Assembly (NCBI GenBank): GCA_002733905.1
Contig: NVXK01000004.1
Coordinates: 1-61,879, forward strand
Direction of reading: 5' to 3'
DNA: 61,879 nt
Source of the DNA: Robiginitomaculum sp.
GTDB lineage: Bacteria; Pseudomonadota; Alphaproteobacteria; Caulobacterales; Maricaulaceae
This document shows positions 25,591 to 46,916 of this stretch, piece after piece. Within the stretch, counting starts at the first letter, position 1. Each line of letters begins with the position of its first letter. The position numbers were made by a program, and so were the translations under genes. Below the pieces are notes generated by a model. It saw nothing but the letters and a program-made list of their open reading frames with translations. It was not told the origin of the DNA and searched no databases.

Positions 25591-25657
25591 ACCCTAACCA
25601 TCTGCGTGATTACCCGTTTAATCAAGTGGTATTTTATGATGTTCAATGTTTTGCTAT

Positions 25658-26185: not shown

Positions 26186-26188
26186 AAA

Positions 26189-28762
26189 TTAATCAGTCAT
26201 ACGTTTTAACAGACGTTTCATGAGTGACTTTTCATCTTCGGTCAATCCTGTCTTTTTTTCCTTTTTGATAGGTTGATCCGTCGTAGATTTCATCGGAACT
26301 TTAGCGCTTTCGTCTTGGTTGTCCTCGTCTTCTTCAGTTTTTAATTCTACCAACATGTCGGCCATCAGGTTTTTCGAGCTACGCTTGCCTTTATAAATCT
26401 CCAAACGTGATTGGTAAATTTTCGGTGGGTAGCTATTATTTGCATGATTTGCATCTGCAATTTGATGATAAATATCGACATCAATGGATGAAATCGGTTT
26501 GTCGCGAACAATTAATTTCGTCACAGATACGCTATTACGTCTCCAAATTTCCGCAGGGATCATAAGGTCTTCTGTTGAGCCATCCACATAGTTGAGTGTA
26601 AGGGGAATAGGGCTAACAAGGCCGCCTATATTTTCAAAGTCTGCAAAATAGATGAACTGGTTGTCTTCCAATGCACGCTCATAAGCCGCACGTTCCCAGT
26701 CTTTCAGACCTTTAAGGAATTCTTGGTGCTTGTTACGGTCTTTGTTTGTGACAGTGTATTTGTCATTTTCATTATACATATCATTGATGGATTTAATGCG
26801 GTCTACGCGCATTGAAATACCTTCTTCGCGGTTACGAATTTGTGTAATTGTTTCAGGGTGATCACGCCAGTAACGGCCGCGGTTTTTATCAAGCTCTATA
26901 TCAGGATCTTGTGTCGAGATTTTGTATTCACGAATGTCGTTAATCGCAATATCAACATGGTCTGTACCAAAGTACCAACCACGGAAGAACCAATCCAGAT
27001 CAACGCCAGAGGCATCTTCCATTGTACGGAAAAAATCAGACGGTGTAGGGCGTTTAAACTTCCAACGGTTTGCATATTCTTTAAACGCATGGTCGAATAA
27101 TTCACGGCCCATAACGGTCTCGCGAAGTACGATAAGCGACGCTGCTGGCTTGGAATAGGCATTCGGGCCAAATTTCAAAATAGAATCAGACTGGGTCATG
27201 ATTGGCACTTGGCCAGAACTCATCATATAGCTTGGAATGATGTCGAGAGGGTTTGCGCTACCGCCAGAAATGCCAAATTCTTCTTCCCACTCATACTCAG
27301 CTAAATACTCCATAAAGCTGTTCAGACCTTCGTCCATCCACGTCCATCTACGCTCGTCTGAATTGACGATCATTGGGAAATAATTGTGGCCAACTTCGTG
27401 AATAATCACACCGATAAGACCGTGTTTAATACCCCGAGAATAGGTTATTTTGCCTGTATCGTCGTCTTTGGTACCACGGTAGCCATTAAAGCTAATCATT
27501 GGATATTCCATACCGCCACGTAACCACGTATTCGCAGAAATCGCTGTCGGGTAGGGATAGTCGAATGTGAATTTTGAATAGACGCCCAGAGTATGCGCGA
27601 CCGCATGGGACGAGTATTGCGACCAAATCGGCTCGGCGTCATTTGGGTAATAAGACATAACACTGACAACAGGAACTTTCTTGTTGTCCTGCTTGTGTAT
27701 CATGGCGTCCCAAATATACTTACGTGAACTGGTAAATGCAAAATCGCGTACATTTTCAGCCTTAAAGTGCCATGTTTTTGTACCTTTAGCTTTGCTTTTT
27801 TCATTTTCTTTTGCTTCTTCTGGGGAGACAATGAAAATGATTTTATCTTCTTTTGCTTTGTCCAATCTGCGGCGTTGTTCTGCGCTGAGGACTTGACGTG
27901 GGTTTTGCAAAACACCTGTTGAACCTACAATATGATCAGAGGGTACGGTGATGCTCACATCATAATTACCAAATTCGAGTGTGAACTCTCCGCGACCAAG
28001 AAACTGCTTATGCTGCCAACCTGTATAGTCCGTGTACGCGACCATGCGCGGAAACCACTGGGCGAGGAAATAAATATATGTGTCGTCTTCTGGAAAATGC
28101 TCATATCCGCCACGGCCACCAATAGCCGCTTCGTCAATAATGTTGAATTTCCAATCAATGCTAAAAGTAATACCAGATTCAGGCGCAAGTGGTGTCGGTA
28201 AATCAATACGCAACATTGTATCATTGATGATATATGGCAAGGCGCGGCCATTAGCATCTTTAATGGCGAGAATTTGATGGCCATGATTAGCATCGGAAAA
28301 AGCCTGCATACGACGCAGAGCATTATAACTAATGGAATCGCCAGATTCCGCCCGGTCACGGCGTGACCCTGCATTTGCGGATGTCTCGCTCATACGTGCG
28401 GTACTGTCGGCCTCAAAACGGTTCTGGTCGAGTTGAACCCAAAGATAATTGAGTATGTCAGGGGAATTATTGGTGTAGTCAATTGTCTCTGAGGCTGTGA
28501 TTGTTTTTTTGTCCTCATCAAGCACAACGTCAATTTTATAATCAGCGGATTGTTGCCAATAGGCAGGGCCTGGAGCGCCAGAAGCATTACGGTAGATATT
28601 GGGGGTTGGTAAATCTGTGCCTAGTTGGCGAAATTTTCTGACCTGATCTGTTTTGCTTCCTGCGGGGCCATTGGCAAAGGCTTGGGAGCCAATGGATAGT
28701 ACGAGCGTAGCCGCAATCGTTGTGTAAACCCCATAGCGGATAGCTTTAAATAATGTACGCAT
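26189..28762 (-). CDS. Exported M1-family zinc metallopeptidase
   Basis: 857 aa, Sec signal peptide (core about residues 12-30, cleavage near AFANG). N-terminal beta-sandwich domain of aminopeptidase N type; catalytic gluzincin motif HEVGHNYFP at about residue 455 with the third ligand in WMDEGLNSFMEY; MRGG/RGGMEYPMISF precedes it, corresponding to the GxMEN-like substrate loop. The C-terminus is charged and Lys-rich (after 810). It would trim peptides or act on small proteins in the periplasm or outside. AGGGGG precedes the ATG. First gene of a pair with the DUF6702-like protein. Confidence 0.9.
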   Translation of the reverse strand: MRTLFKAIRYGVYTTIAATLVLSIGSQAFANGPAGSKTDQVRKFRQLGTDLPTPNIYRNASGAPGPAYWQQSADYKIDVVLDEDKKTITASETIDYTNNSPDILNYLWVQLDQNRFEADSTARMSETSANAGSRRDRAESGDSISYNALRRMQAFSDANHGHQILAIKDANGRALPYIINDTMLRIDLPTPLAPESGITFSIDWKFNIIDEAAIGGRGGYEHFPEDDTYIYFLAQWFPRMVAYTDYTGWQHKQFLGRGEFTLEFGNYDVSITVPSDHIVGSTGVLQNPRQVLSAEQRRRLDKAKEDKIIFIVSPEEAKENEKSKAKGTKTWHFKAENVRDFAFTSSRKYIWDAMIHKQDNKKVPVVSVMSYYPNDAEPIWSQYSSHAVAHTLGVYSKFTFDYPYPTAISANTWLRGGMEYPMISFNGYRGTKDDDTGKITYSRGIKHGLIGVIIHEVGHNYFPMIVNSDERRWTWMDEGLNSFMEYLAEYEWEEEFGISGGSANPLDIIPSYMMSSGQVPIMTQSDSILKFGPNAYSKPAASLIVLRETVMGRELFDHAFKEYANRWKFKRPTPSDFFRTMEDASGVDLDWFFRGWYFGTDHVDIAINDIREYKISTQDPDIELDKNRGRYWRDHPETITQIRNREEGISMRVDRIKSINDMYNENDKYTVTNKDRNKHQEFLKGLKDWERAAYERALEDNQFIYFADFENIGGLVSPIPLTLNYVDGSTEDLMIPAEIWRRNSVSVTKLIVRDKPISSIDVDIYHQIADANHANNSYPPKIYQSRLEIYKGKRSSKNLMADMLVELKTEEDEDNQDESAKVPMKSTTDQPIKKEKKTGLTEDEKSLMKRLLKRMTD

Positions 28763-28865
28763 TGTAATCCCCCTAATTATAAGAGCATTGAGTCAAATGC
28801 CGTTATAACGATTTCATATCTTATGACATGTTCACGTGATGGGGTTTATCATATTCGTCTAATAG

Positions 28866-28889
28866 GAGTATTACATTTTTGTAATACTC
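28866..28889. repeat. Perfect 9-bp inverted repeat between a glycosyltransferase-like gene and the M1 gene
   Basis: Arms GAGTATTAC and GTAATACTC surround ATTTTT. It begins 7 bp beyond the glycosyltransferase stop, on its downstream side, and lies about 100 bp upstream of the M1 gene start. With no proper U-tract on the minus strand it could be a weak terminator or an operator for the M1 promoter. Confidence 0.55.
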
Positions 28890-28895
28890 GCGAGC

Positions 28896-29732
28896 TCAGT
28901 AAGTGCGCGCCTCTACGCGTTTATGGGTTAACAGGCCAGCGCCACAGGCGATTTTCCACCCTGACTGCGTCCAAAAACGGGAATTGTTAAGTTCGACCTC
29001 TATTGCCTTAAAACCATTCGCCCCACGGCCGAGAGGGACCGATTTGCAATAAGGAATGATTGTATCCAAAAAAAACTGTCGGTTTATAATTATACTCTGG
29101 TTCGTCCACGCCATAGTCGCGCAATCAACCAGAAAAAACCCATCGCCCACGTCTTCGATATATTGGGGAAACTGATGAGAAGGGGCATCAGATACATAGA
29201 CAGCATTCCCGCAGAGACGCTTGGCTTTGCTTGGCCGTAAAAGGCGTCGCGCTTTTGCGGCTACCGTATCCATTATAGGGAAATAGCGTAAATATTTATC
29301 ATATATATTGAATTTTTCTCCGAAATGTTTTGTGTGACGCATACGTGCCATACAGGCGTTATCTTGAGAAAGAAGCGCCAAAGCTTTTGTGATTTGTCGC
29401 TCGCATTCTGCTTTATCTTCTAACAAAGGACAGTCATTTTCAGTGAAGAAAATATAGTCAGTTTTCAGCCGCTTTGCGATCTCTTCCATGCCGTTCATAA
29501 TGCCAAAATTATCTGGCGACGTTTCAATACGGTAGGGGTGCTGAGCCGCGATAGATTTGGATTCGTCGTCAACTTCGGGTAGGAAAATCATAGCTTCGTC
29601 AAATAATGCGTAAAACCCAGCATCCGCATAGGTTTTGAGGGCATATTCAAGAGAACTTTGGCCACGCCAACTTAGCGTGCCAAGACCAATGCTGCCATAT
29701 GGATATTTGTCTACCAATGCTCTGTGATCCAC
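28896..29732 (-). CDS. Glycosyltransferase-like protein (GT-A-type), function unknown
   Basis: 278 aa, no signal peptide and no membrane helix. The layout of an early SSLEYALKTYADAGF helix, an alternating hydrophobic core and IFFTENDCPLL (where a nucleotide-sugar enzyme would have its acidic motif) suggests a GT-A fold. CARGxHT-like loop RGANGFKAIEVELN follows. It overlaps the upstream glycosyltransferase-like gene by 22 bp, so the two are coupled. I cannot name the family; it could be a cell-surface glycan enzyme. Confidence 0.6.
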   Translation of the reverse strand: MDHRALVDKYPYGSIGLGTLSWRGQSSLEYALKTYADAGFYALFDEAMIFLPEVDDESKSIAAQHPYRIETSPDNFGIMNGMEEIAKRLKTDYIFFTENDCPLLEDKAECERQITKALALLSQDNACMARMRHTKHFGEKFNIYDKYLRYFPIMDTVAAKARRLLRPSKAKRLCGNAVYVSDAPSHQFPQYIEDVGDGFFLVDCATMAWTNQSIIINRQFFLDTIIPYCKSVPLGRGANGFKAIEVELNNSRFWTQSGWKIACGAGLLTHKRVEARTY

Positions 29733-30439
29733 GGCGTTGGGCGTACATGTTTATATGTCTTTTTGATCCAGTGTTTAACAGGCCATTTTCCGACGGCAGC
29801 CTCATCTTGATCCGGCTTGCCCGTAAAGGCAACGATCCGTGTTTCTGTTGGTAGTTTGGGAGATATGAAAAAATTCAATGGCCATTTTGGCATAAGGCTA
29901 TGTTTAAAACTGACACACCACTCTTGCGGCCAAAATACCATGTCGTCTATTTCACGTGAAATATAGAGTTGCTCGATACGGTATGCATCCAATACAGACA
30001 TTGGGTCTTCCTGTACGCGGTCAAAAATATGAGCGTATTTCCCAACAGGAAAACGAAACGCAGATGTATTGCCCTTGTTTTGACCTTTTTGTGTCCAGTT
30101 TTCAATGACGCAATACCGACCTTTTTCATAGTCAAATAACGCATCAAGATTTCCCGTGATCACCAAGTCTAAATCTAAAAACAACACATCGCCGCTGAGA
30201 TCTGCAAGCGGATATTTCCACATAGCAAGTTTACGCCACGGTAGATTTATAAAGTCCTCAGGCAGGTTGATGTCTGGAATAGGCTCTATTTGCACGTCTT
30301 TGACGACACCGTCTGCGTCATCTGTAAAACAGACAAGACGTGTCGGACGCGTCGTTTGGCGTTGTATCGCGCTATAGAGGCGGTTTACATATTCCGCCCC
30401 ATAACGCGTCCCCCATTTCATGCAGATGATTGTTTGCAT
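29711..30439 (-). CDS. Glycosyltransferase-like protein with DxD motif
   Basis: 242 aa cytoplasmic GT-A-type enzyme. N-terminal IICMKWGTRYGAEYVNRLYSAI and RLVCFTDD resemble GT8-like transferases, and LFLDLDLVITGNLD holds the DxD metal/nucleotide-sugar motif. The later segment WPLNFFISPKLP and VAFTGKPDQ is typical of small surface-polysaccharide transferases. Starts 14 bp after the M28 gene ends on the same strand, so it may be cotranscribed with that exported peptidase and the second transferase-like gene. The near-consensus parS palindrome lies inside this gene. Confidence 0.72.
   Translation of the reverse strand: MQTIICMKWGTRYGAEYVNRLYSAIQRQTTRPTRLVCFTDDADGVVKDVQIEPIPDINLPEDFINLPWRKLAMWKYPLADLSGDVLFLDLDLVITGNLDALFDYEKGRYCVIENWTQKGQNKGNTSAFRFPVGKYAHIFDRVQEDPMSVLDAYRIEQLYISREIDDMVFWPQEWCVSFKHSLMPKWPLNFFISPKLPTETRIVAFTGKPDQDEAAVGKWPVKHWIKKTYKHVRPTPWITEHW
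29948..29963. other. Near-consensus parS-like palindrome
   Basis: TATTTCACGTGAAATA is a perfect 16-bp palindrome sharing the 12-bp core TTTCACGTGAAA with the parS consensus TGTTTCACGTGAAACA; it differs only at the symmetric positions 2 and 15. It lies in the second glycosyltransferase-like gene, encoding YISREI on the minus strand. Likely a second ParB site given the perfect one 4.6 kb away. Confidence 0.6.
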
Positions 30440-30453
30440 TTTGGTGATTGCGC

Positions 30454-32121
30454 CTAGTGGTTTTTCTTCAACATTTCGTCGCGCAGGCCTCTGAACTCAG
30501 TGCCTTCATACCAATTTGGCCACGTGCGGCTATTGGCAATATGACTGCCGAGTTCATAGAAGATTTGACCCGTTTGTTCGATGCCTGAAATATCCCAAGT
30601 ATGATCATATTCATCGCTCGGTGCGTGATAGCGTTCTTTGGTATATTCCGCGTTCATCGCTTCCCCATAAGATTTGCCGTTAATTTCGTGATCAACACCG
30701 CCGTGGGTATAGAGCATGGGCACACCTTTTTTGGCAAGGCTGATATGGTCAGAGCGGTAGTAATAGCCAGCCTCTGGCTTATCATCAGGCGCAACATACA
30801 TGCCCTTTGGATTGATGATTTCTGCGAGTATATCGTCTAGGTCTGAAACCCCAAAACCAACGACCATCATGTCTTTGGTGCGGCCAACAGGCTTGATCGC
30901 GTCAATGTTGAGACCTGCAACGGTTTTATGCAAAGGTACAAGTGGGTCTTCACTATAATAGGCAGAACCTAACAAGCCAGACTCTTCGGCGGTTACGGCA
31001 ACCACAATGATAGAGCGTTCCGCAGGTTTTTGTGCAAAGGCTTCACCGATTTCGATGATTGTCGCTGTACCTGTGGCATTATCAACCGCGCCGTTATAAA
31101 TGCCGTCTTCACCCTCTGGGACGTCTTTCATGCCAAGATGATCCCAATGTGCCATATACATAACATATTCATCTGGATATTTGGTGCCTTTCACCGCACC
31201 TGCAACATTACGGGACTGGATGGTTTCAATTGTATTGTTGATTTGCGCGTTCATGCTGAGGCCGTTCATCATACGCGGTTTGAAACCTTGAACCGCAGCC
31301 GCCGTTTTCATTTCGTCAAAATCAAGACCTGCACGCGCAAACAATGCTTTTGAGCTGTCCAAAGATATCCAACTTTCTAGACCTGCACGTGACGCGCCTT
31401 TGTCTGGACGAACAAGATCAATCTGAGAGCCGCCCCAACCACCAGAAATAACACTCCAGCCATAACTCGCAGGTGCGGTCTCGTGGACAATAATAACGCC
31501 TGCAACGCCTTGGCGTGCGGCTTCTTCGAATTTATATGTCCAGCGACCATAATAGGTCATGGCATTACCTTTGAATAAATCTTTGTCTTTCGTCGCAAAA
31601 CCCGGATCATTGACGAACATAACAACGGTTTTGCCTTTTACGTCTATGCCTGCATAATCATCCCAGTTATATTCGGGGGCAACAACGCCGTAGCCGACAA
31701 AAACAAGTTCAGAATTATTGATACTGACCGAGTCTTGGTAACGTTTTGTCCAAAACACAGCATTGTTTTGATCGTCATAATCTGTCGCCGTGCCGTCTGC
31801 ACTGCTGATTTTCATGAACGATCCATCAGCGACAGTCGTCTTTGTCAGGGTGATTGGTTGAAAATAACTACCGTCTTTGCCCATAGGGACAAGGCCAGCC
31901 GCTTTCATCTCATCGGCAATATATTGACTTGCAAGTCTGCCGCCTTTTGTACCTGGGTCGCGGCCTTCAAAATCATCAGAGGCAAGGCGCTCAATACGTC
32001 GCCCAATATCAGCCGCCGAAATACTCGGCGCCACAGATGTATCTGCTTTTGGTGCAGGTGGCGTACAGGCCAAAAGTGCGAGTGTTGATGTTGCGAATAA
32101 AAAAGACTTGGCTAAAGACAT
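30454..32121 (-). CDS. M28-family metallopeptidase lipoprotein with PA domain
   Basis: About 555 aa from the ATG at 32121, which follows GGGGGATTATT and opens a lipoprotein signal peptide (lipobox LLAC, Cys about 18). The frame is open further upstream to 32292, but that part does not look like protein. A PA-type insert (FVGYGVVAPEYNWDDYAGIDV) precedes the catalytic core with metal ligands in MAHWDHLG, GAVDNATGTA, AEESGLLGS, NIDAI and YYRSDHISLAKKGVP. Expected role: releasing amino acids from peptides at the cell surface or periplasm. It diverges from another M28 gene across a 222-bp intergenic region. Confidence 0.9.
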   Translation of the reverse strand: MSLAKSFLFATSTLALLACTPPAPKADTSVAPSISAADIGRRIERLASDDFEGRDPGTKGGRLASQYIADEMKAAGLVPMGKDGSYFQPITLTKTTVADGSFMKISSADGTATDYDDQNNAVFWTKRYQDSVSINNSELVFVGYGVVAPEYNWDDYAGIDVKGKTVVMFVNDPGFATKDKDLFKGNAMTYYGRWTYKFEEAARQGVAGVIIVHETAPASYGWSVISGGWGGSQIDLVRPDKGASRAGLESWISLDSSKALFARAGLDFDEMKTAAAVQGFKPRMMNGLSMNAQINNTIETIQSRNVAGAVKGTKYPDEYVMYMAHWDHLGMKDVPEGEDGIYNGAVDNATGTATIIEIGEAFAQKPAERSIIVVAVTAEESGLLGSAYYSEDPLVPLHKTVAGLNIDAIKPVGRTKDMMVVGFGVSDLDDILAEIINPKGMYVAPDDKPEAGYYYRSDHISLAKKGVPMLYTHGGVDHEINGKSYGEAMNAEYTKERYHAPSDEYDHTWDISGIEQTGQIFYELGSHIANSRTWPNWYEGTEFRGLRDEMLKKNH

Positions 32122-32343
32122 AATAATCCCCCTAAAGATGGTCGAAACCCTGATATTTAAAATATGAAATACGCGAGGCAAGTTGCGCCGAAACTTAAAT
32201 GTTTGCAAGTTGTAATTCACATGGGGTTCTACAAAATTTTCTATACAAAAAACATATTCAGCTATGCAAATAATTTTCTTGCGACAAAACAATGCACGCT
32301 TATGGTAGGGGGGTAAAACACAATTTCATTTTAAGGGTGAGCC

Positions 32344-33768
32344 ATGACTTCTTTTAAACTTCTTACCGTGTCCGTATTGGCGCTAACACTCGCAAGCTGT
32401 GGCGCACAAACAGAACTCTCTTTAGATATCACAAACGAAGACACTATTATTGTGAGTGATAATGCAGATGTAAAAGCTTTGTCTGAACTTGCCCTGTCAA
32501 AAGGCTATGGCTATAATATCACCAAATCATTGACAACAGAGATTGGCCCGCGTTTGGCGGGGACTGCCGCCGAAGAAAATGCGCGTGCATGGGCTGTCGC
32601 CAAATTTAAAGCATTGGGCTTTGAAAATATCAGTGTTGAGCCTTTCAGTGTTGACGGTTGGGAGCGCGGTGTTGAAACGGCGCGTATCACATCACCATCA
32701 CAACAAAACCTGTTTGTAACGGCACTTGGCGGTTCTGTCTCGACGCCGCGTGGGGGCATTGAAGCGCCTGTTGCCTATTTTAAAACATTCGATGATCTTG
32801 CAAATGCGCCAGAAGGTGGTCTTGATGGAAAGATTGTCTATATATCAGGTCGCATGGAGCGTGCGCGGGACGGTGCAGGGTACGGCCCGGCCAACAAAAA
32901 ACGACGCAGCGGCGCAACCGAGGCCGCCAAACGCGGCGCTGTCGCTGTGTTAATTCGTTCTGTCGGTACTGACTCACACCGTTTCCCTCACACAGGTCAA
33001 ATGCGGTACGCGGAAGACGCCAAGAAAATCCCTATCGGCGCAATCTCTGGGCCAGATGCAGATCAGCTTGACCGTGTTTTTGCAACAGATCAATCTGTTA
33101 CGATTCATATGGATTTGAACACACGTGCCACTGGCGCGAAAATGTCGGGTAATGTGATTGCCGAAATCGTAGGCAGTGAAAAGCCTAATGAAATCATATT
33201 GATAGGCGCACATCTGGATTCATGGGACTTGGGAACAGGTGCTATTGATGACGGCGCAGGTGTCGGTATTGTTATGGGGGCGGCTAAAATGTTGATGGAT
33301 TCTGGTTTAAAGCCAAAACGTACAATCCGCGTCGTATTGTTCGGCGCCGAAGAAATCGGCCTTAAGGGTGGTTTTGCATATGTAGACGCGCACAAAGACA
33401 CTGATCTCGCCAATCATATTCTTGCAACGGAATCCGATTTCGGTGCAGGACGTATATATAGTATTCAGGCTGGCGCGGGCGAGGAAAACATTGCAGGTGT
33501 CAAAGCTATCGCACCCGAGTTTAAATTCTTAGGGATTGAATTTCAAGATGGGGCAAGTACAGGCGGGCCAGACATTGGGCCAATGGCGCGCGAAGGTGTA
33601 CCGACGATTCGCTTGAACCAAGACGGTACAGACTATTTTGATCTTCATCATACACCTGATGATACATTTGATAAAATCGACCCAGAGGCCATGGCGCAAA
33701 ACGTAACGGCTTATGCAACGATGATATGGCTAGCGTCAGAATCTGATTCAAATTTCAAAGGCGAGTAA
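32344..33768 (+). CDS. M28-family metallopeptidase lipoprotein with PA domain
   Basis: 474 aa, lipoprotein signal peptide (lipobox LASC, Cys about 19). N-terminal TEIGPRLAGTAAEENAR, PA domain (about 140-240, VAYFKTFDDLANAP, GKIVYISGRM), then the M28 core with GAHLDSWDLGTGAIDDGAG, FGAEEIGLKGG, ESDFGAG and HHTPDDT supplying the canonical two-zinc ligands and catalytic Glu. Resembles carboxypeptidase Q/aminopeptidases of gammaproteobacteria and Hyphomonadaceae. Divergent from the minus-strand M28 lipoprotein, so the two are probably controlled from a shared region. Confidence 0.92.
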   Translation: MTSFKLLTVSVLALTLASCGAQTELSLDITNEDTIIVSDNADVKALSELALSKGYGYNITKSLTTEIGPRLAGTAAEENARAWAVAKFKALGFENISVEPFSVDGWERGVETARITSPSQQNLFVTALGGSVSTPRGGIEAPVAYFKTFDDLANAPEGGLDGKIVYISGRMERARDGAGYGPANKKRRSGATEAAKRGAVAVLIRSVGTDSHRFPHTGQMRYAEDAKKIPIGAISGPDADQLDRVFATDQSVTIHMDLNTRATGAKMSGNVIAEIVGSEKPNEIILIGAHLDSWDLGTGAIDDGAGVGIVMGAAKMLMDSGLKPKRTIRVVLFGAEEIGLKGGFAYVDAHKDTDLANHILATESDFGAGRIYSIQAGAGEENIAGVKAIAPEFKFLGIEFQDGASTGGPDIGPMAREGVPTIRLNQDGTDYFDLHHTPDDTFDKIDPEAMAQNVTAYATMIWLASESDSNFKGE

Positions 33769-33826
33769 TAAAGAGCGAATAATAAGAGTGAGCAAACATA
33801 TAATATCGAAAGAATATGGGGGAAAT

Positions 33827-35113
33827 ATGCGTAAAATTATTTTAGGAACACTTGTGAGTTTGGCCGCAATGGGGGCGTCTCACGCCGCGAATGCAGAAGA
33901 TTTACTTAAACTATACAAATACTTACATGCCAATCCTGAGCTATCACGCGTGGAGTTCAAAACCGCTGCGCTTATGGCGGATAAACTTGATGCCCTTGGG
34001 TTTGATGTAACCCGTGAAGTCGGAGAAACGGGCGTTGTCGCCGTTATGAAAAATGGCAATGGCCCAACCGTGATGATTCGCGCCGATATAGACGGTCTAC
34101 CTGTGAAAGAGAAAACAGGGCTAAGTTACGCGAGCACAGTTATGACCAAGGATTATGGCGGCAATGAAGTGCCTGCTATGCACGCCTGTGGTCATGATAT
34201 TCATATGACAGTTTTGATTGGCACGGCCGAGAACCTTGTCGCGCAAAAAGAAAACTGGTCAGGAACACTTATTATGATCCTTCAGCCTGCCGAAGAATTG
34301 GGGCAGGGTGCGCGGCTTATGATTGATGATGGTTTGTTTACACGTTTCCCACGTCCAGACTATAATCTCGCTCTACATGATAGCGCCAGCCTCGAAGCTG
34401 GACAAATCGGACTTGTGAGCGGTTACGCAATGGCCAATGTCGATTCTGTTGATATAACTGTACGCGGTATTGGTGGACATGGCGCATATCCACATACGAC
34501 TAAGGACCCCGTTGTACTGGCAGCGCAAATCGTAACCTCTTTGCAGACAATTGTTTCACGTGAAACATCTCCGCTTGAATCTGCTGTTGTGACGGTTGGC
34601 TCCATCCACGGCGGTACAAAACACAATATTATTCCAGGTGAAGTCAAGCTGCAATTGACCATTCGTTCCTATACGGATGAGGTACGCGAAAGTACACTTA
34701 AGTCTATTGAACGTATCGCTCTGGGGTTGGGGCTTGCTTATGGCCTGCCTGAGGACAAATTACCAATCGTCAAGCTTAAAGATGAGTATACGCCCGCACT
34801 TTATAATAACCCAGAATTAACCGCACGTCTTACGCCAATTATCGGCAAAGCCATTGGCCAAGACGTTCTGGCGTTAAAGCCTGTTATGGGCGGCGAAGAT
34901 TTTAGTCAATTTGGCCGCGTAGAACCAAAAATTCCAGGGCTTCTGTTCTGGGTCGGCGCTGTAAATGCCAAGACGATGAAGAAAGCCAAGAAAAAGGGAG
35001 TGTCACTCCCGTCACTTCATTCAGCCTTGTTTGCCCCTGATCCAAAACCAACAATTGATAATGGTGTGAAAGCTATGACGGCTTCCGCGCTAGAACTTTT
35101 ACAAAACAAATAG
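33827..35113 (+). CDS. Exported M20-family amidohydrolase/peptidase
   Basis: 428 aa from the ATG at 33827, which has GGGGGA upstream and begins a Sec signal peptide (cleavage near AANAE); a GTG at 33788 would put 13 extra residues in front. M20D signatures: HANPELSRVEFKTA, IRADIDGLPVKEKTG, MHACGHDIHM, LQPAEELGQGA and MGGEDFSQF, matching the hippurate/IAA-amino-acid amidohydrolase branch. It would hydrolyse N-acyl amino acids or small amides in the periplasm. Follows the M28 gene by 58 bp and precedes the nitronate monooxygenase by 9 bp. A perfect parS palindrome lies inside the coding sequence. Confidence 0.9.
   Translation: MRKIILGTLVSLAAMGASHAANAEDLLKLYKYLHANPELSRVEFKTAALMADKLDALGFDVTREVGETGVVAVMKNGNGPTVMIRADIDGLPVKEKTGLSYASTVMTKDYGGNEVPAMHACGHDIHMTVLIGTAENLVAQKENWSGTLIMILQPAEELGQGARLMIDDGLFTRFPRPDYNLALHDSASLEAGQIGLVSGYAMANVDSVDITVRGIGGHGAYPHTTKDPVVLAAQIVTSLQTIVSRETSPLESAVVTVGSIHGGTKHNIIPGEVKLQLTIRSYTDEVRESTLKSIERIALGLGLAYGLPEDKLPIVKLKDEYTPALYNNPELTARLTPIIGKAIGQDVLALKPVMGGEDFSQFGRVEPKIPGLLFWVGAVNAKTMKKAKKKGVSLPSLHSALFAPDPKPTIDNGVKAMTASALELLQNK
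34552..34567. other. Perfect parS consensus palindrome (ParB binding site)
   Basis: TGTTTCACGTGAAACA matches the chromosomal parS consensus at all 16 positions. It lies in-frame inside the M20 amidohydrolase gene, encoding VSRET. VSRE-like text is common in this protein family, so part of the sequence may reflect coding constraint, but the full 16-bp identity is striking. Confidence 0.8.
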
Positions 35114-35122
35114 GAAACAATA

Positions 35123-36070
35123 ATGTCACTACCCGAAATACTGCAAAATTTAGAGCTTCCCGTCATTGGCGCACCTTTGTTTATCGTGTCAGGCCCAGAG
35201 CTTGTAATTGCACAATGCAAAGCGGGAATCGTTGGGTCATTCCCTGCGCTAAATGCACGTCCTGCAGAGGAGCTGGAAAAATGGATCATCCGCATCAAAG
35301 CGGAACTTGCAGAATACCAAGCCGCTAACCCAGATAAAAAAGTAGCGCCATTCGCCGTTAATCAAATCTGTCATGCCTCTAATGATAGATTACAACACGA
35401 CATGGAAGTCTGTGTGCGCCAACAAGTGCCGATTGTCATTACCTCACTACGTCCACCAAAGGCTGTTATTGACGCTGTGCATTCTTATGGCGGTATCGTC
35501 TTGCATGATGTTATCAATATTCGTCATACGAAAAAAGCCCTTGCAGAAGGCGCAGACGGTATCATTGCTGTATGTGCTGGTGCTGGTGGACATGCTGGCC
35601 AATTATCGCCTTTCGCACTGGTTCCTGAAATTCGCGCTTTCCATGATGGGCCGCTCTTGTGTTCAGGATCTATTACGACAGGTGGCAGTGTTTTGGGCGC
35701 GCAAGCAATTGGTGCGGATCTGGGTTATATCGGGACTCGTTTTATTGCGACTCAAGAAGCAAATGCCCCTGATGAATACAAACAAATGATTGTTGATTCT
35801 GCTGGTGATGACATTGTGTACTCATCTTTGTTTACAGGGATTTCTGGGAATTACCTTAAAGGCTCAATCAGCAAAGCTGGCTTGGATCCAGATCAGTTAG
35901 AAAGTGCGGATAAAACGTCGATGAATTTTGGATCATCCGACGCAAAAGCATGGAAAGACATTTGGGGTTCTGGGCAAGGGGTTGGCAGTATTCATGCAAT
36001 TCCAACGGTTGCTGAAGTTGTCGAGCAAATGAAAAAAGAATACGCCGCAGCAAAAGCACGTATCGCCTAA
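35123..36070 (+). CDS. Nitronate monooxygenase family FMN enzyme
   Basis: 315-aa TIM-barrel flavoprotein of the 2-nitropropane dioxygenase/NMO family, oxidising nitronates with O2. Signatures: PVIGAPLFIVSGPELVIAQCKAGIVG at the start, SLRPPKAVIDAVHSYG, ADGIIAVCAGAGGHAGQLS (containing the catalytic-type His of AGGHAG) and GADLGYIGTRFIATQEAN. Starts 9 bp after the M20 gene and is probably cotranscribed. Some NMO-family members serve other FMN-dependent reactions, so substrate is uncertain. Confidence 0.88.
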   Translation: MSLPEILQNLELPVIGAPLFIVSGPELVIAQCKAGIVGSFPALNARPAEELEKWIIRIKAELAEYQAANPDKKVAPFAVNQICHASNDRLQHDMEVCVRQQVPIVITSLRPPKAVIDAVHSYGGIVLHDVINIRHTKKALAEGADGIIAVCAGAGGHAGQLSPFALVPEIRAFHDGPLLCSGSITTGGSVLGAQAIGADLGYIGTRFIATQEANAPDEYKQMIVDSAGDDIVYSSLFTGISGNYLKGSISKAGLDPDQLESADKTSMNFGSSDAKAWKDIWGSGQGVGSIHAIPTVAEVVEQMKKEYAAAKARIA

Positions 36071-36199
36071 GCTTTTGTATTGGCTTCGTTACCAACTTAC
36101 CTGTAATTATGCCTCAATCGTTAAGCTTTTGCCATAGGTAACGGAAACCTACTGTAAAAGCACTGCATTGTTGGTTGCGTTTTCGTCTGTGTTAATGTT

Positions 36200-36215
36200 A
36201 TTAACAATAGTTAAT
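36200..36215. promoter_or_regulatory. Inverted repeat upstream of the OmpA-like gene
   Basis: ATTAAC AATA GTTAAT, a 6-bp-arm dyad, about 30 bp before the start of the OmpA-like gene in a 174-bp non-coding gap. It could be an operator; the TTAA spacing does not fit the CtrA consensus. Low support. Confidence 0.3.
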
Positions 36216-36244
36216 ATGAATCGATATCCATACAGGGGGAGATT

Positions 36245-37342
36245 ATGGGAAGTTTTGGTAAGTGGCTTACTGGCTTTATTATTCTAGCTATTGCCGCGCT
36301 TATTCTTGAATTATTCACACCATGGGGTGCGAAAGCAAACTCGGCGGCAATGGGTAATTCAGTTTCAACGGCTTTGAATGATGGCGGGTTTAAGAACGTG
36401 ACATCTGCTATGGCTGGTAATGTCGCGAAACTTAGCGGCGTGGTGACAAGTGCAGACGCAAGGAGCAATGCAATTACTGCTGCTGAAAATGCACAGTGTG
36501 AAAAATGCACAAACCGTGAAAGCGGGAAACGCTGGCATGAAGTTGACGGCACAGATATCAATGTCGTGAAGCCTGTTGTTACGGTTAGCCCTTACACGTT
36601 AACGGGCGAACGGACTGATGATGGCGGCATTGTATTGAATGGCTATGTCCATGATGATGATGCCAAGGCAGCATTACTTATGGCGGCAGAGAAAGCCTTT
36701 CCTGGCAAAGTGACCGATAACAAGGTAAGAATCGGGCACGGCGCTCCGACAGAAAACTGGTTGGCGATTGCGACGGCAAATATGGCTGGACTTTCAAACC
36801 TTGATACGGGCCGTTTTACCATGAAAGATATGGATTGGACGCTTGCAGGCAAAGCAAGCAGCGTTGCTATTCGTTCAAGAGTAAATTCTAGTGTCGATAG
36901 TCTTGGTGTTTCCACCAATATTAGTGTGGACAATGCTGTTGCTGAAAACGTTGGCCAAATCAAAGACGGGAATGTGTGTCAGCAAACATTTGATCGCCTT
37001 AAAGGTGGTACTAAAATTCAATTTGCCTCAGGAAGTGCGGAAATCACAGATACTGAGAGTTTGAAATTGCTCAGTGATCTTGCTGCAGCTGCCCAACAAT
37101 GTTCTAGCTTTAATATTACGATTGCAGGGCATACAGATTCTACGGGTATTGCAGAAAGCAATCGTGTGTTGAGCGAGAGTCGTGCAACAGCTGTTGCCGA
37201 TGTTCTATTTACAAGCGGGGTTGTGCAAACTCAACTCTTTACACGTGGTTACGGACAAGATCGTCCTGTAGCAACGAATGGTACACGTGAGGGTCGCACC
37301 CAAAATCGTCGTATCGAATTCACAATTACTAAGTCTAAATAA
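36245..37342 (+). CDS. OmpA-family envelope protein with N-terminal membrane anchor and BON-like domain
   Basis: 365 aa. One N-terminal membrane segment (about 6-24, WLTGFIILAIAALILELF), uncleaved in appearance. Residues about 30-200 contain two BON-like repeats (NGYVHDDDAKAALLMAAEKAFPG; the first carries CEKC). The C-terminal OmpA peptidoglycan-binding domain has IQFASGSAEI, IAGHTDSTGIAESN, LSESRATAV, RGYGQDRPVATN and TREGRTQNRRIEF. The layout resembles mycobacterial ArfA/OmpATb. GGGGGAG precedes the ATG. The next gene follows 11 bp later and encodes another anchored envelope protein, so they likely form a unit. Confidence 0.85.
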   Translation: MGSFGKWLTGFIILAIAALILELFTPWGAKANSAAMGNSVSTALNDGGFKNVTSAMAGNVAKLSGVVTSADARSNAITAAENAQCEKCTNRESGKRWHEVDGTDINVVKPVVTVSPYTLTGERTDDGGIVLNGYVHDDDAKAALLMAAEKAFPGKVTDNKVRIGHGAPTENWLAIATANMAGLSNLDTGRFTMKDMDWTLAGKASSVAIRSRVNSSVDSLGVSTNISVDNAVAENVGQIKDGNVCQQTFDRLKGGTKIQFASGSAEITDTESLKLLSDLAAAAQQCSSFNITIAGHTDSTGIAESNRVLSESRATAVADVLFTSGVVQTQLFTRGYGQDRPVATNGTREGRTQNRRIEFTITKSK

Positions 37343-37353
37343 GGGGAAATCTC

Positions 37354-38430
37354 ATGGACAATATTATTTCTTACATTACTTGTTTTGGTTGGATACCTCA
37401 TCTGCTAATGGGTCTCCTTGGTCTTCTTCTTGGCTGGCTCCTTTTTAGAGGCAAAGTACAAACTGGCGATTTAAATATTGAGGGTGAAGGTCAACTTCGC
37501 GCTGAATCAGATGGCCTTCGTACACGTATCAATGATCTTGAAGGCCGTGTTGGGCGTCGTGACGTAACAATCACAGGTCTAGAATCACAAATGAATGCGG
37601 GTGGTGAAGTTGCATCAGATGACGATGACAGCTACGCGCTTGAATGGCGCAACCGTTATCTTGCGGCACGTGTGAAATATCTTGAAGGTCGTATCGTTGA
37701 TACACCAGCGCCTAAGAAAAAAGCTGCACCTAAAAAGAAAGTAGCACCAAAGAAAAAACCTGTAGCGAAAAAAGCAGCCGTGAAAAAACCACAAGTGCTT
37801 TATAAAACTGCATCTGATGGCAAGCCTGATGACCTTAAGCTTATTTCTGGTGTTGGTCCAAAACTAGAGAAACTTCTCAATAAAAACGGTGTTTATTATT
37901 TCCGTCAAATTGCCAACTGGAATAAAGGCAATGTGAAAATGGTAAATGACAAGCTAGACGCATTTCCTGGTCGTATTGAACGCGATGAATGGGTGCGCCA
38001 AGCGAAAGGTCTCGCAAAAACGAAGACAGCGAAGCCTGTGGCCAAAGCCAAAGCAGCCAGTGCGAAAAAGGCAGTTGTTAAGAAAGCTCCTGCGAAAAAA
38101 GCAGCGTCTAAGCCAACTGATATGGATAAGTATTTTGCCAATGTTCGTAAATATGATCCAAAAGCAAATCGGACTATTGTTGAAAACATTGTTAAACATT
38201 GTGGTATTTCTCTTCGCTCACGTGACGCTTCATTGGTTGCATGTTCTGACGAAAAAGAGCTGGACCGTGTTGTTAAAAACTTCTGTACAAAGAAGCTTGG
38301 CATGACATCGAAACAAAAAGAAACAGTTGCAGGTGTATGTACGCAAATGAAACCAGACCGTTTCAAAAACCGCGTAACATTCTACTATCTGTGTGCTAAA
38401 TCTGCACGCAAACTTGCAATGTTCAAGTAA
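37354..38430 (+). CDS. Membrane-anchored helix-hairpin-helix / DUF2853 fusion protein
   Basis: 358 aa. N-terminal membrane segment (about 13-32, GLLGLLLGWLLFRG), short coiled-coil-like part (about 45-110), Lys/Ala/Pro-rich linker with PKKK repeats (about 117-145), a helix-hairpin-helix domain (about 160-195, LKLISGVGPKLEKLLNKNG), a second Lys/Ala linker, and a C-terminal DUF2853-like domain (about 255-325, KYFANVRKYDPKA, LGMTSKQKETVAGVC). Cationic linkers and an HHH next to a membrane anchor suggest the protein may hold a nucleic acid or other polyanion at the membrane; this is inference. Cotranscribed with the OmpA-like gene and followed by a terminator. Confidence 0.8.
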   Translation: MDNIISYITCFGWIPHLLMGLLGLLLGWLLFRGKVQTGDLNIEGEGQLRAESDGLRTRINDLEGRVGRRDVTITGLESQMNAGGEVASDDDDSYALEWRNRYLAARVKYLEGRIVDTPAPKKKAAPKKKVAPKKKPVAKKAAVKKPQVLYKTASDGKPDDLKLISGVGPKLEKLLNKNGVYYFRQIANWNKGNVKMVNDKLDAFPGRIERDEWVRQAKGLAKTKTAKPVAKAKAASAKKAVVKKAPAKKAASKPTDMDKYFANVRKYDPKANRTIVENIVKHCGISLRSRDASLVACSDEKELDRVVKNFCTKKLGMTSKQKETVAGVCTQMKPDRFKNRVTFYYLCAKSARKLAMFK

Positions 38431-38457
38431 CACTCCTCTACACAAAAGTGTATAGAA

Positions 38458-38489
38458 AGGCTCGCCGTTCTGGCGGGCCTATTTTTTTG
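38458..38489 (+). terminator. Intrinsic terminator after the HHH/DUF2853 gene
   Basis: Stem AGGCTCGCC / GGCGGGCCT (one G-U-type mismatch pair) with a GTTCT loop, followed by ATTTTTTT. It closes the OmpA-like/HHH transcription unit. Confidence 0.82.
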
Positions 38490-38565
38490 CCAAAATAAAA
38501 CTTGAATACAAAATAGCATAAGGGAGTTTTATCCACGGTGGGGTGTTGGGCCCCATAGTGGCGAA

Positions 38566-38988
38566 ATGAAACTTTCTAAGCCACAACAATACCCAAAAAT
38601 AAAATCACGCACTCACAGGTGGGCATGGCGCTCTTTTACGCCATCTGAAATGGCTTGCCCGCATTGTGGCGAAATATATGACTGGCCAGAATTTATGACG
38701 CGTTTACAGGCTGCGCGTGACCGCAATGGGAATCCATTTGTGATTAACTCTGCTCATCGGTGCGGTTTACACAATGCCCGTGTAGGCGGCGCGCCATTAT
38801 CCCAACATTTGAAACTCGCTGTTGATATTAGCCTTAAAGGACATGATCGGCACATCCTATACCAAAATTGCAAAGAGGCGGGATTTACAGGGTTTGGATT
38901 TTATACATCATTTTTACATGTCGACCTTGGGCGAAGACGTCATTGGTTCGGAAATCAGAAAGCAAAACAATTATGGCAAATTTATTAG
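38566..38988 (+). CDS. Phage-type M15 peptidase (putative endolysin)
   Basis: 140-aa peptidase M15-family (D-Ala-D-Ala carboxypeptidase-like) protein, of the short phage-borne kind. Features: SFTPSEMACPHCGE, INSAHRCGLHNARVGGAP and the zinc motif SQHLKLAVDIS (His and Asp ligands), and the last His in FLHVDLG. It would cut the peptide crossbridge of peptidoglycan. No signal peptide, consistent with export through a holin. It overlaps the next gene, which encodes a holin-like protein, and there are no other phage genes beside it. Start chosen as the first ATG; no strong ribosome site. Confidence 0.82.
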   Translation: MKLSKPQQYPKIKSRTHRWAWRSFTPSEMACPHCGEIYDWPEFMTRLQAARDRNGNPFVINSAHRCGLHNARVGGAPLSQHLKLAVDISLKGHDRHILYQNCKEAGFTGFGFYTSFLHVDLGRRRHWFGNQKAKQLWQIY

Positions 38989-39443
38989 GCTTGGGATTAG
39001 ACGCGGCTGCAGGCGGCGTATTCGGGATTATTGGCACTGGTCTTGGACGAGTCGCGGGTTATTTCGAACGTAAACAATCATTTGTGCAAGAGGAGAAACG
39101 CTGGGGGCATGAATTAAAGCTCCATGAATTACAGATGAAAGCCCACAAGCAAGAAACCGAAATGGAACTTGCGATCGAAGCCCAGAAGGGCAGTTGGAAA
39201 GGCTTGGAAGCATCTTTGCACGCAGATGCCAACACGGGCATTGCCAGCAAATGGGTTATCAATATTTTGCGTTTGGTGCGACCCGTTCTCACACTGTTAT
39301 TGTGGCTAATTACTGGCTGGATTTTTTCAAAAACCCAAGACAGTACGATTGCAAGTTCAGCTGTATTTGCGGCTACAGCGTCGACGCTATGGTGGTTTGG
39401 TGACCGAGCGCCTAAGCCTAAATTGTCAAATACTGTTCTGTGA
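38973..39443 (+). CDS. Putative phage-type holin-like protein
   Basis: 156 aa from ATG at 38973 (the upstream frame from 38868 overlaps the M15 gene in another frame and looks artefactual). It has a Gly-rich start (GLGLDAAAGGVFGIIGTGLG), a charged, helical middle (about 28-75), and two C-terminal membrane helices (about 90-113 VLTLLLWLITGWIF and 120-140). Overlap with the M15 endolysin and this topology suggest a holin/lysis partner resembling the GTA-type three-helix holins, but I cannot confirm the family. Confidence 0.6.
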   Translation: MANLLGLGLDAAAGGVFGIIGTGLGRVAGYFERKQSFVQEEKRWGHELKLHELQMKAHKQETEMELAIEAQKGSWKGLEASLHADANTGIASKWVINILRLVRPVLTLLLWLITGWIFSKTQDSTIASSAVFAATASTLWWFGDRAPKPKLSNTVL

Positions 39444-39455
39444 TATGTGAACGCT

Positions 39456-40622
39456 TTATATTTCTAATGCGGTCGCGGTAAGGGCATAGGTCACAATAGC
39501 GGCCATGATCATGAACAATATAAACCAGTATAAAAACCCGCCCATCAACGTCGTCCAGACAGTTTTAATCCATCCGCGCTTGAACATATGTTTTATGGAA
39601 AGCATGAAATATATGCTCATAAAACTAAACAGGCCTAATGCCGAGCCAAGTCCTGACAAAAGTTGAGATGCGCTAATTGTTATGAGTATGCCTAAGAACA
39701 GGGCGGACTGTAAATAGATTGCGTGTATCAAATGATCAATCAAAAGGGCTTTCGGCCCAGAATTAAAGAACCAGCCAAGTAGCATAGCAAATGGAACCAT
39801 CAAAAACATTGCCCTCGGCAGCCATGTATTGACGGTACTATTAAATGATTTCGGGTTGGAGAGGACTTTACGAATAATTTTTTCAGACTGATCAAAACCC
39901 AAATTTAGGTCTAATGCAGTATTACTGTTGCGTGTGTTCGGCCTCACGAAATTATTCAGTTCTTCGTCGGTGAGTTTGTAAATTTCTTTATCTTGGGTGA
40001 AAAACTTAACCTGTAGCTCGAAATCTGTGAAATTCAGGCTGGCTTGATTGTCCGCGCCTGTTCTTCCAATACTGATAACAATGTCATCAATTTCTTCTTT
40101 AGCAAGGTCTTCGGAGTTCTCCTCCGTGTCAACGATATCTGGAATATCCGTTGCCAATTGCGATTGAGTTTGTGCTTTATCTTTTGGTGACACTTCAAAG
40201 CTTATGAAATGTGTGTTGGATACAGACATAAATGTAAAAAACAAAATACTCACGACAAGATAGGTACGAATCGGAGACGAGTAACGTGTGCGCGCACCAT
40301 CTGCATATTGACGGGCAATCTTACCTGGCTTGAATATAAGGGCGCCGAATGTTTTCCACATCCGCGATTCGAACGAAAAAATTCCGCCAAGTGTGTCTGC
40401 GATCAACGCAAAAAGAGAACGCCGCATATCATCATTTTTCTGACCGCAATTTGGGCAAAATGCATCTGACACAGCAGTATTACACGAGAGACAATGCGTA
40501 TATGGTATTATTTCTTGGCGTTTATTGTTCTTTTTTTTGCTTTTGACTTTTGTTGTTTTACGGTTTTTTATGTCTAAACTAGCAAAGGCCAAAGCTTCTT
40601 CTTCTAAGTCCATCCCCGTCAT
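39456..40622 (-). CDS. DUF3667-like membrane protein with N-terminal zinc ribbon
   Basis: About 388 aa. N-terminal zinc-ribbon-like pair HCLSCNTAVSDAFCPNCGQK, then DMRRSLFALIADTLGGIFSFESRMWKTF and RPGK-type motif (KPGKIARQYADGARTRYSSPIRTYL), the DUF3667 pattern. Membrane helices near 130 and four near the C-terminus; a soluble, Asp/Glu-rich loop (about 150-260) lies between. Starts at 40622 or 40613 are likelier than 40664, because the longer frame's first codon overlaps the palindrome at 40660. Function unknown. Confidence 0.75.
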   Translation of the reverse strand: MTGMDLEEEALAFASLDIKNRKTTKVKSKKKNNKRQEIIPYTHCLSCNTAVSDAFCPNCGQKNDDMRRSLFALIADTLGGIFSFESRMWKTFGALIFKPGKIARQYADGARTRYSSPIRTYLVVSILFFTFMSVSNTHFISFEVSPKDKAQTQSQLATDIPDIVDTEENSEDLAKEEIDDIVISIGRTGADNQASLNFTDFELQVKFFTQDKEIYKLTDEELNNFVRPNTRNSNTALDLNLGFDQSEKIIRKVLSNPKSFNSTVNTWLPRAMFLMVPFAMLLGWFFNSGPKALLIDHLIHAIYLQSALFLGILITISASQLLSGLGSALGLFSFMSIYFMLSIKHMFKRGWIKTVWTTLMGGFLYWFILFMIMAAIVTYALTATALEI

Positions 40623-40659
40623 CCCATCAAATACCCATGTGAATACATTTTTGTATATA

Positions 40660-40673
40660 TGCAATTAATTGCA
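40660..40673. promoter_or_regulatory. Palindromic operator candidate upstream of the SDR/acyl-CoA dehydrogenase operon
   Basis: TGCAATTAATTGCA, a perfect 14-bp palindrome, between the divergent DUF3667 gene and the first SDR gene, about 60 bp before the SDR start. Position and symmetry fit a repressor (TetR- or LacI-type) site, but no regulator gene is nearby. Confidence 0.45.
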
Positions 40674-40732
40674 CATTAGCGATTGTGTTGCCCGAATACT
40701 TAGTTATCATGGAAAAAAAGGAGAAACACAAT

Positions 40733-41536
40733 ATGGTTTCAGGACAAAGCGTCGCAATAACAGGCGCAGCCGGGGGAATAGGGCGCGCAATAGCAGAAAA
40801 ATGCATTGCCGCTGGCGCCAAAGTAGCCATTAGCGATATTAATGAAGAGCTTGTAAATCAAACGGCTAAAGAAATCGGCGCTAGCCCATTTGTGTGTGAT
40901 GTTGCCGATGAAATGGCTGTAAAAGCATTTATTGAGGGCGCAGAGGCCGTAAACGGCCCTATTGATATGTTTGTATCCAATGCAGGTGTTGGCTTCTCTG
41001 ACGAACCGGGCGGTCACGCCGCTGGTGGCTCAAATGAGGGGTGGGAGCTTTCTTGGAAAATCAATACTATGTCAAACGTCTATGCGAGCCGCTATCTGCT
41101 GCCGCAATGGCTAGAGCGCAAAGACGCTGATGTCGCAGGGCGCTTTGTTGTTGTTGCTTCGGCGGCAGGGCTTTTGGCGCAAGTAAATACAGCCTCCTAT
41201 ACGGTTACGAAACATGGGGCCTTGGCCTTTGCTGAATATATGGCGATTATGCATAAAGGCGATAACGTATGTGTGCATTGTATTTGCCCGCAATATGTAC
41301 AGACAAATATGACCAAAGGCATGAAAGTCATCACCGAAGGGCCCGATAAACACATCATGCCTTCTGACGTCGCCAATGCATTGTTTGCAAGCATGGAGAA
41401 GGGGGAATTCCTTGTCCTGCCGCATCCTGTAATTGGTGATTATTTTCAGGCGAAAGCTGCAAACTTTGACCGCTATATTGGCGGCATGTCAAAACAACTT
41501 AGAACGGCGCAAACGCCCGTTGGATTAAAAAAGTGA
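40733..41536 (+). CDS. Short-chain dehydrogenase/reductase
   Basis: 267 aa from the ATG at 40733, which has AAGGAG upstream; the longer frame from 40685 starts with TTG and lacks a ribosome site. Classical SDR: cofactor loop TGAAGGIG, VCDVAD, SNAGVGF, and the catalytic Ser/Tyr/Lys in VVASAAG and SYTVTKHG. The IGDYFQAKA tail suggests the Asp/NAD(H)-like side of the family. First gene of a six-gene operon with a second SDR, an APH kinase and three acyl-CoA dehydrogenases; likely oxidises or reduces a hydroxyacyl intermediate. Confidence 0.9.
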   Translation: MVSGQSVAITGAAGGIGRAIAEKCIAAGAKVAISDINEELVNQTAKEIGASPFVCDVADEMAVKAFIEGAEAVNGPIDMFVSNAGVGFSDEPGGHAAGGSNEGWELSWKINTMSNVYASRYLLPQWLERKDADVAGRFVVVASAAGLLAQVNTASYTVTKHGALAFAEYMAIMHKGDNVCVHCICPQYVQTNMTKGMKVITEGPDKHIMPSDVANALFASMEKGEFLVLPHPVIGDYFQAKAANFDRYIGGMSKQLRTAQTPVGLKK

Positions 41537-41544
41537 GAGAGAAA

Positions 41545-42303
41545 ATGGCAAGATTTGATTTAACAGGAAAAGTAGCCTTAATCGCTGGCGCAAGTCGCGG
41601 TATTGGCGAAGCGATTGCTCACGCTATGGCAGAGCACGGCGCGACAGTGATTTGTGCGTCTCGTAATGTCGAAGATTGTCAAAAGGTCGCAGACGCGATT
41701 GTGGCAAAAGGCGGCATCGCAAGCGCAAAGACGGTTCACCTTGGCCGTATGGCTGATCTTGATGCCGTGATTGCCGACATAGAAAAAGAACATGGGCGGT
41801 TAGATATTTTAGTGAATAACGGCGCGACAAATGTATTTTATGGCCCTGCACATAAATGTCCGGAATCGGCTTATGATAAAACAATGGAAGTCAATGTTAA
41901 GGGGCCTTACTTTTTAAGTGCGGCTGCAATTCCTCTCATGCTGAAAAATGATGGTGGTTCAATCGTAAATGTCGCGAGTATTGATGGTTTACAGCCTGGT
42001 GCTCTGCGTACTGTGTACGGTATGACGAAAGCCGCCGTTATCAATATGACAAAAGGTTTTGCAAAAGAATATGGCAGAAAGGGTATTCGTGTGAATGCGC
42101 TTCTCCCCGGTTTTACCGATACAAAATTAGCATCTGCACTGAAAGAAATGCCAAATTTACAAGCTATGATGGATGAAAACCTTGCAATTCCACGTATGGC
42201 CGCTCCAGAAGAAATGGTTGGGGCCGTTTTATTCTTGGTCTCTGACGAAGCTTCTTATGTCACAGGCCACAGCATGGTCGTCGATGGCGGGATGACAATA
42301 TAA
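41545..42303 (+). CDS. Short-chain dehydrogenase/reductase
   Basis: 252 aa from ATG at 41545 (a GTG at 41533 overlaps the previous gene). Classical SDR of the FabG-like type: GASRGIGEAIA, LVNNGATNVF, IVNVASIDG with the catalytic Ser, VYGMTKAAV with the Tyr-x-x-x-Lys, and C-terminal TGHSMVVDGGMTI. Nine bases after the previous stop, with a GAGAGAG ribosome site. Second dehydrogenase of the operon; substrate probably a hydroxyacyl-CoA by context. Confidence 0.92.
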   Translation: MARFDLTGKVALIAGASRGIGEAIAHAMAEHGATVICASRNVEDCQKVADAIVAKGGIASAKTVHLGRMADLDAVIADIEKEHGRLDILVNNGATNVFYGPAHKCPESAYDKTMEVNVKGPYFLSAAAIPLMLKNDGGSIVNVASIDGLQPGALRTVYGMTKAAVINMTKGFAKEYGRKGIRVNALLPGFTDTKLASALKEMPNLQAMMDENLAIPRMAAPEEMVGAVLFLVSDEASYVTGHSMVVDGGMTI

Positions 42304-43370: not shown

Positions 43371-43380
43371 GGAGATAAAA

Positions 43381-44538: not shown

Positions 44539-44549
44539 GGAAAATATAA

Positions 44550-45671: not shown

Positions 45672-45672
45672 A

Positions 45673-46902: not shown

Positions 46903-46916
46903 CGCACTTGATATGG

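Follow-up and report, generated by a model that had tools for sequence, protein, structure and literature searches.

A perfect parS palindrome inside an M20 amidohydrolase gene of Robiginitomaculum sp. as a putative ParB-binding site, in a genus with dispersed parS

Several well-described systems provide a frame for the parS palindrome considered here. The ParB protein of Hyphomonas neptunium, likewise from a marine alphaproteobacterium, binds the identical 16-mer in vitro, and the two sites reported for this species both lie upstream of parAB (PMC6650430). The sites of Caulobacter crescentus, an alphaproteobacterium sharing the consensus and the ParB type, are clustered ~8 kb from ori (PMC5815017). 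In Caulobacter, a parS placed ectopically close to ter attracts ParB and initiates arm alignment of the SMC type, and SMC-dependent alignment levels out ~600 kb from parS (PMC5583512). Cells tolerate a second parS cluster across ~500 kb surrounding the native one and, to a lesser degree, within ~100 kb of ter, tolerance of an ectopic parS being partial there; extra parS at mid-arm are disfavoured and harm segregation (PMC5815017). Multiple parS across a wide region are described for Bacillus subtilis, the eight sites of which span ~0.75 Mb, and scattered parS in general are reported to be restricted to few lineages and to be seemingly counterproductive for condensin collision avoidance (PMC8357415). 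Pseudomonas aeruginosa PAO1 carries ten parS, four near oriC and six elsewhere, with 8/10 in the ori domain; the six weaker sites, with two mismatches, are unable to substitute for those at oriC (PMC4368675).

The genome analyzed here (Robiginitomaculum sp., G000) combines an origin cluster with probably distal sites and differs in some respect from each of these systems. Unlike the two H. neptunium sites and the Caulobacter cluster, natural perfect sites occur within genes that lie, in closed relatives, at 28-51% (xseA), 70-74% (M20), and 88-97% (sufD) of the distance from parS to the antipode; whereas the B. subtilis sites span ~0.75 Mb, the host genes in this Robiginitomaculum-like genus reach the terminus side in those relatives, and the distal sites of G000 are perfect, unlike the weaker ones of PAO1. 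Given the reach of arm alignment in Caulobacter, the disfavour shown to mid-arm sites, and the few lineages with scattered parS, a genus with perfect sites in genes of the arms and terminus would constitute a natural exception. Its close relatives carry the origin cluster alone, so that the reasons for the usual restriction of centromere sites to the origin, and the ways in which distributed ones are tolerated or used, can be studied in a natural comparison. The literature search returned no title or abstract opening that reports dispersed parS in Alphaproteobacteria (most papers being judged on these parts alone), and no paper found for Robiginitomaculum and parS concerned parS by its title. 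The site described below is best read as a putative ParB-binding site, one of a set of dispersed parS with slow turnover.

The window comprises 61,879 nucleotides, positions 1-61879 of contig C7 of G000 (Cn denotes contig n; G001 and further numbers denote the compared genomes; NCBI taxonomy places Robiginitomaculum in Maricaulales). The features discussed are collected in Table 1.

Table 1. Positions of parS sites and related features; numbers without a contig label refer to the window.
Feature	Position	Strand	Remarks
Perfect 16-bp parS palindrome TGTTTCACGTGAAACA	34552..34567		0 mismatches to consensus
M20 amidohydrolase gene with parS inside	33827..35113	+	PF01546 Peptidase_M20 and PF07687 M20_dimer; TIGR01891
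Degenerate 16-bp palindrome TATTTCACGTGAAATA	29948..29963		2 mismatches to parS; encodes YISREI
Gene block collinear with G014:C1 ~1,869-1,896 kb and G001:C12 ~58-83 kb	24530..48641		
Four clustered perfect parS of G000	C9:96376-99808		beside parB, rsmG, mnmE, mnmG
HTH_ParB match (parB)	C9:93888-94175		2.2 kb from first C9 cluster site
Isolated perfect parS of G000	C2; C4; C7; C32		in sufD; in xseA; in M20 gene; between genes

The first-pass annotation of the window had described TGTTTCACGTGAAACA as identical to the ParB-loading consensus, as lying within coding sequence, and as encoding residues whose codons are partly fixed by the protein family, all of which proved correct: the palindrome matches the consensus throughout, it is read in frame as ATT GTT TCA CGT GAA ACA (I-V-S-R-E-T), and the IVSRET peptide is conserved in the family. 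Because of this conservation, the expectation of ~1e-5 given there is too small to serve as a test; conditional on IVSRET and on codon usage taken from 429 kb of G000, the probability of a perfect parS is 0.0047. (The genome-wide expectation of 0.23 from the same codon calculation is inflated, since VSRET peptides at the very parS sites contribute almost the whole of it.) The codons for S-R-E (TCN CGN GAR) are intrinsically near-palindromic. Among 13 M20 orthologues of the genus, the peptide at the site is IVSRET in 7, IISRET in 5, and IVSREI in one; the palindrome is perfect in one alone, and five stand two mismatches from parS, so that the relatives were not found to keep it. Its bases are not conserved even in the sister species G001, and in the codon alignment of the M20 gene parS does not emerge as a conserved codon run. 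The orthologues therefore retain the peptide and not the bases, contrary to the possibility, raised in the first pass, that homologues keep the same bases purely for codon reasons. An origin of the palindrome on an inserted element was rejected, as the M20 orthologues align without a gap across the site and the surrounding genes are collinear with those of G001 and G014.

The genome to which the window belongs (3,476,002 bp in 43 contigs, 96.9% complete) contains eight perfect parS, no one-mismatch site, and five two-mismatch sites, whereas the reversed control pattern, searched likewise at up to two mismatches, gave a single match against 13 for parS. As every perfect parS has 48 one-mismatch variants in sequence space, a ratio of eight to zero to five makes chance a poor explanation genome-wide. 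Four of the perfect sites form a cluster on C9 and four are isolated (Table 1); the one on C32 had no match among the other site regions compared. The ParB protein encoded beside the cluster scores above the TIGR00180 parB cut-off and has as its best solved match 6t1f (E 3.2e-66), which we take to be Caulobacter ParB, and the neighbouring gene product is ParA-like but under the model cut-off (109 of 180 bits). The consensus palindrome, a cognate chromosomal ParB, and a cluster beside parAB are accordingly all present in this genome. A second HTH_ParB match occurs at G000:C41:124944-125198, within a 622-aa open frame.

Dispersal of this kind appears confined to one genus within the family sample of 37 genomes (G000-G036). 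Of the 25 genomes with at least two perfect parS, 21 have them confined to ≤4.2 kb on one contig, and the four with dispersed sites (G000, G001, G005, and G010) all belong to the same genus. Besides the eight sites of G000, there are four clustered and eight isolated sites in G001, two on the contig with mnmE and three isolated in G010 (83% complete), and two isolated in G005 (79% complete), in which no cluster site was found. Provided that the contigs of G001 belong to a single chromosome, all its parS fit into a minimal arc of ~1.37 Mb, out of 3.1 Mb in total. Nine of the 17 isolated sites fall in coding sequences (M20, sufD twice, xseA three times, glyS, valS, and trpE) and eight between genes. 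The notion that the host genes form a paralogue set sharing the motif was rejected, as they are six different, unrelated genes.

Four of the isolated loci, namely xseA, sufD, rluD, and rplA, are common to more than one species. The xseA site is present in G000, G001, and G010 (3/12 alignable orthologues of the genus), the sufD site in G000 and G001 (2/12 genus genomes with sufD), and the site upstream of rluD in G001 and G010 (2/12, with a two-mismatch version in the same place in G013); G010 and G005 share a site immediately downstream of rplA. In the three xseA genes with parS, the longest run of identical codons is parS itself (AAT GTT TCA CGT GAA ACA TTT, 7 of 466 aligned codons), against a background codon identity of 0.297 and a next longest run of 5; in sufD the longest run is again parS, with 6 codons against a background of 0.484 and a next longest run of 4. 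In a tree of four proteins, G000 is the sister of G001 (support 1.0) and G010 groups with G003-G012 (0.996); support is 0.147 at the deeper node that unites the G010 group with G005/G013. Given these placements, the shared sites are either ancestral and lost elsewhere or were gained repeatedly. Several xseA genes of the genus that lack parS show peptides such as NVSREA, TVSREA, or NLSREV at this position, which are absent from the outgroups in the family and from the basal G011. These VSRE-like peptides are consistent with, though no proof of, decayed parS, and may represent protein fossils of a DNA site.

The flanks of the sites were compared between the 17 isolated sites, that of the window included, and 10 cluster sites, orthologous sites not being independent of one another. 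Both groups have in common the flank AAW...WTT: A at -2 is found in 16/17 isolated and 10/10 cluster sites (mirror position, 15/17 and 10/10), and A at -3 in 14/17 and 9/10 (mirror position, 15/17 and 9/10). The M20 site fits five of the six flank positions; two of these are forced by the Ile codon, by which its flank match is thus largely dictated. A longer palindrome of 22 bp, AAWTGTTTCACGTGAAACAWTT, is common to the parS sites of the genus.

Since most parS of other bacteria lie near ori (PMC7022226, PMC5815017), the first-pass annotation had proposed that the window site is an origin-proximal parS, a reading that now appears highly improbable. The parS cluster, parAB, and the GC-skew origin, the remoteness of which it had itself named as refuting evidence, are, in their computable parts, indeed elsewhere: parB, the parS cluster, and a change of skew sign lie on C9, whereas C7 has a single skew sign, positive in all 20 ten-kb bins. 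Along C9 the skew stays negative over the first 60 kb, is slightly positive between 60 and 80 kb, has a value of -0.04 at 86-96 kb, and becomes strongly positive beyond 105 kb. Even if C7 joined C9 so as to minimize the distance, the window site would be at least 125 kb from the nearest cluster site. A comparison with the closed relative G014 (one contig of 3,450,490 bp, parS cluster at 3,168-3,170 kb), which belongs to another genus and relative to which the unclosed G000 is rearranged in gene order, extends this picture. Across 28 compared stretches of G014, C7 is anchored at three places: 4-8 kb corresponds to 2,253-2,257 kb, 25-48 kb to 1,869-1,896 kb, and 169-171 kb, on the basis of two genes, to 1,474-1,476 kb. 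The gene order of C7 is broken relative to G014. These anchors all lie 0.9-1.7 Mb from parS, at 53, 74, and ~98% of the way to the antipode, with the M20 block at 1.28 Mb (74%) and the anchor to its left at 0.91 Mb (53%). The anchors of C9, by contrast, flank parS on both sides (2,663-3,120 kb on the left; 3,151-3,154 and 211 kb on the right). The skew of G014 is weak: all 12 samples between 50 and 1,494 kb are positive, and all 12 between 1,560 and 3,110 kb are negative; farther on, the samples at 3,150, 3,170, and 3,320 kb are positive and that at 3,200 kb is negative, the one sample of 28 off the trend. From skew and anchors together it follows that C9 spans the origin and that C7 is part of a single arm, extending in the direction of the terminus; the window site is therefore probably far along one chromosome arm. 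In G014, sufD (97% to the antipode) and xseA (28%) likewise stand in collinear blocks. In G027 and G036, which provide weaker evidence on position than the collinear blocks of G014, the corresponding values are 70% for M20, 94% for sufD, and 50% for xseA (G027, with one neighbour 15 kb away) and 88% for sufD and 51% for xseA (G036, where M20 had no match at 1e-80). The rluD gene lies at 80, 30, and 38% in G014, G027, and G036, respectively. Around the parS cluster of G001 (C6, 113-153 kb), the skew samples are weakly positive and rise after the cluster, with no change of sign.

We consider it probable that the window site is a genuine parS that nucleates chromosomal ParB and belongs to a dispersed set of perfect sites beyond the origin cluster; binding by ParB would be expected from its bases, and selection is likely to act on the site itself. 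The strongest competitor is a coincidence of codons, in which the conserved IVSRET happens to be spelled as parS, so that ParB may bind at a place which was never selected and where it does nothing useful. With IVSRET and IISRET common at this position and five of 13 orthologues two mismatches away, codon drift could have produced the window site; the unconserved bases in G001 point in the same direction, as does a second palindrome encoded through S-R-E, TATTTCACGTGAAATA, 4.6 kb off and likewise not kept in that species. Even so, the conditional chance of 0.0047, which makes such an accident conceivable, is still small, and besides the window site G000 contains three isolated perfect ones, of which two are also conserved in G001, and lacks any site at one mismatch; for these reasons we hold this coincidence to be unlikely. 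As a general explanation, codon constraint alone was rejected: it fits the M20 gene, but xseA and sufD keep bases beyond codon expectation. A role of the dispersed palindromes as targets of a different DNA-binding protein or in local gene regulation, in place of a centromere function, is very unlikely; they are single, they stand in or between unrelated genes (8/17 are intergenic, some beside rluD, rplA, and accA), and a role in gene expression has been proposed for some parS of P. aeruginosa (PMC4368675), but their core is identical and their flanks are similar to those of the cluster sites linked to parAB, and 9/17 sit inside the coding sequences of six unrelated genes.

The palindrome TATTTCACGTGAAATA, degenerate relative to parS but in itself a perfect palindrome, is located in a gene that is conserved in G001 and has no Pfam match. 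When the window was shuffled, 10 of 100 shuffles reached two or more matches with up to three mismatches allowed, so that TATTTCACGTGAAATA is not significant by itself; the near-palindromic codons for S-R-E would account for it as well. It combines, as we assume, features of parS and of a Noc-binding site, and a literature search for the Noc site found nothing. A third 16-bp palindrome in the window, ACCAAATGCATTTGGT, is perfect and occupies positions 56175-56190.

If the window site is the genuine parS that we favour, ParB-CTP clamps would load there after passage of the replication fork, spread by sliding across a few kb of the region with M20/M28 peptidase genes, and recruit SMC locally, as at ectopic parS in Caulobacter. 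The dispersed sites could in this way act as secondary condensin-loading points on arms perhaps beyond the reach of SMC loaded at the origin. New sites may arise most easily where a protein already requires S-R-E codons, as in the M20 gene, and later be kept or lost. The SMC_hinge profile PF06470 had no match in any of four genomes searched (G000, G001, G010, and G014), and the Caulobacter control was likewise blank; the model seems unsuitable for Alphaproteobacteria.

A broader scenario, which we offer tentatively and regard as possible but doubtful, is that the ancestor of the genus had perfect parS chromosome-wide, down to the terminus, as a distributed array for centromere function or condensin loading, and that its daughter lineages are losing this array, with VSRE 'fossils' such as those of XseA left behind; multiplication of parS would then probably have arisen several times in the Alphaproteobacteria. 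In a census of 385 genomes of Alphaproteobacteria, 282 carry one or more perfect parS, usually one to three, and the reversed control gave no exact match. The highest count, 78, belongs to a genome of 1.8 Mb (G290), followed by 18 each in G271 and G429, 13 in G262, nine each in G065, G352, and G378, and then the eight of G000; positions were seen for G352, G429, and part of G290, and the other high counts (G271, G262, G378, and G065) are counts alone, which need not mean dispersal. On contig C1 of G352, single sites lie 1.2 and 1.7 Mb from the cluster. G352 and G429 belong to another genus, in which several perfect parS are single and on different contigs; the compared stretches around their parS sites gave no cross-match. 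Ten stretches of G290 (25,452 bases) contain 31 perfect parS together with 21 variant copies (TGTTTCnCGnGAAACA). The copies in these stretches often form short arrays, some of them intergenic and some within long open frames, and one array consists of six copies at 37-bp spacing (L278, 1889-2089).
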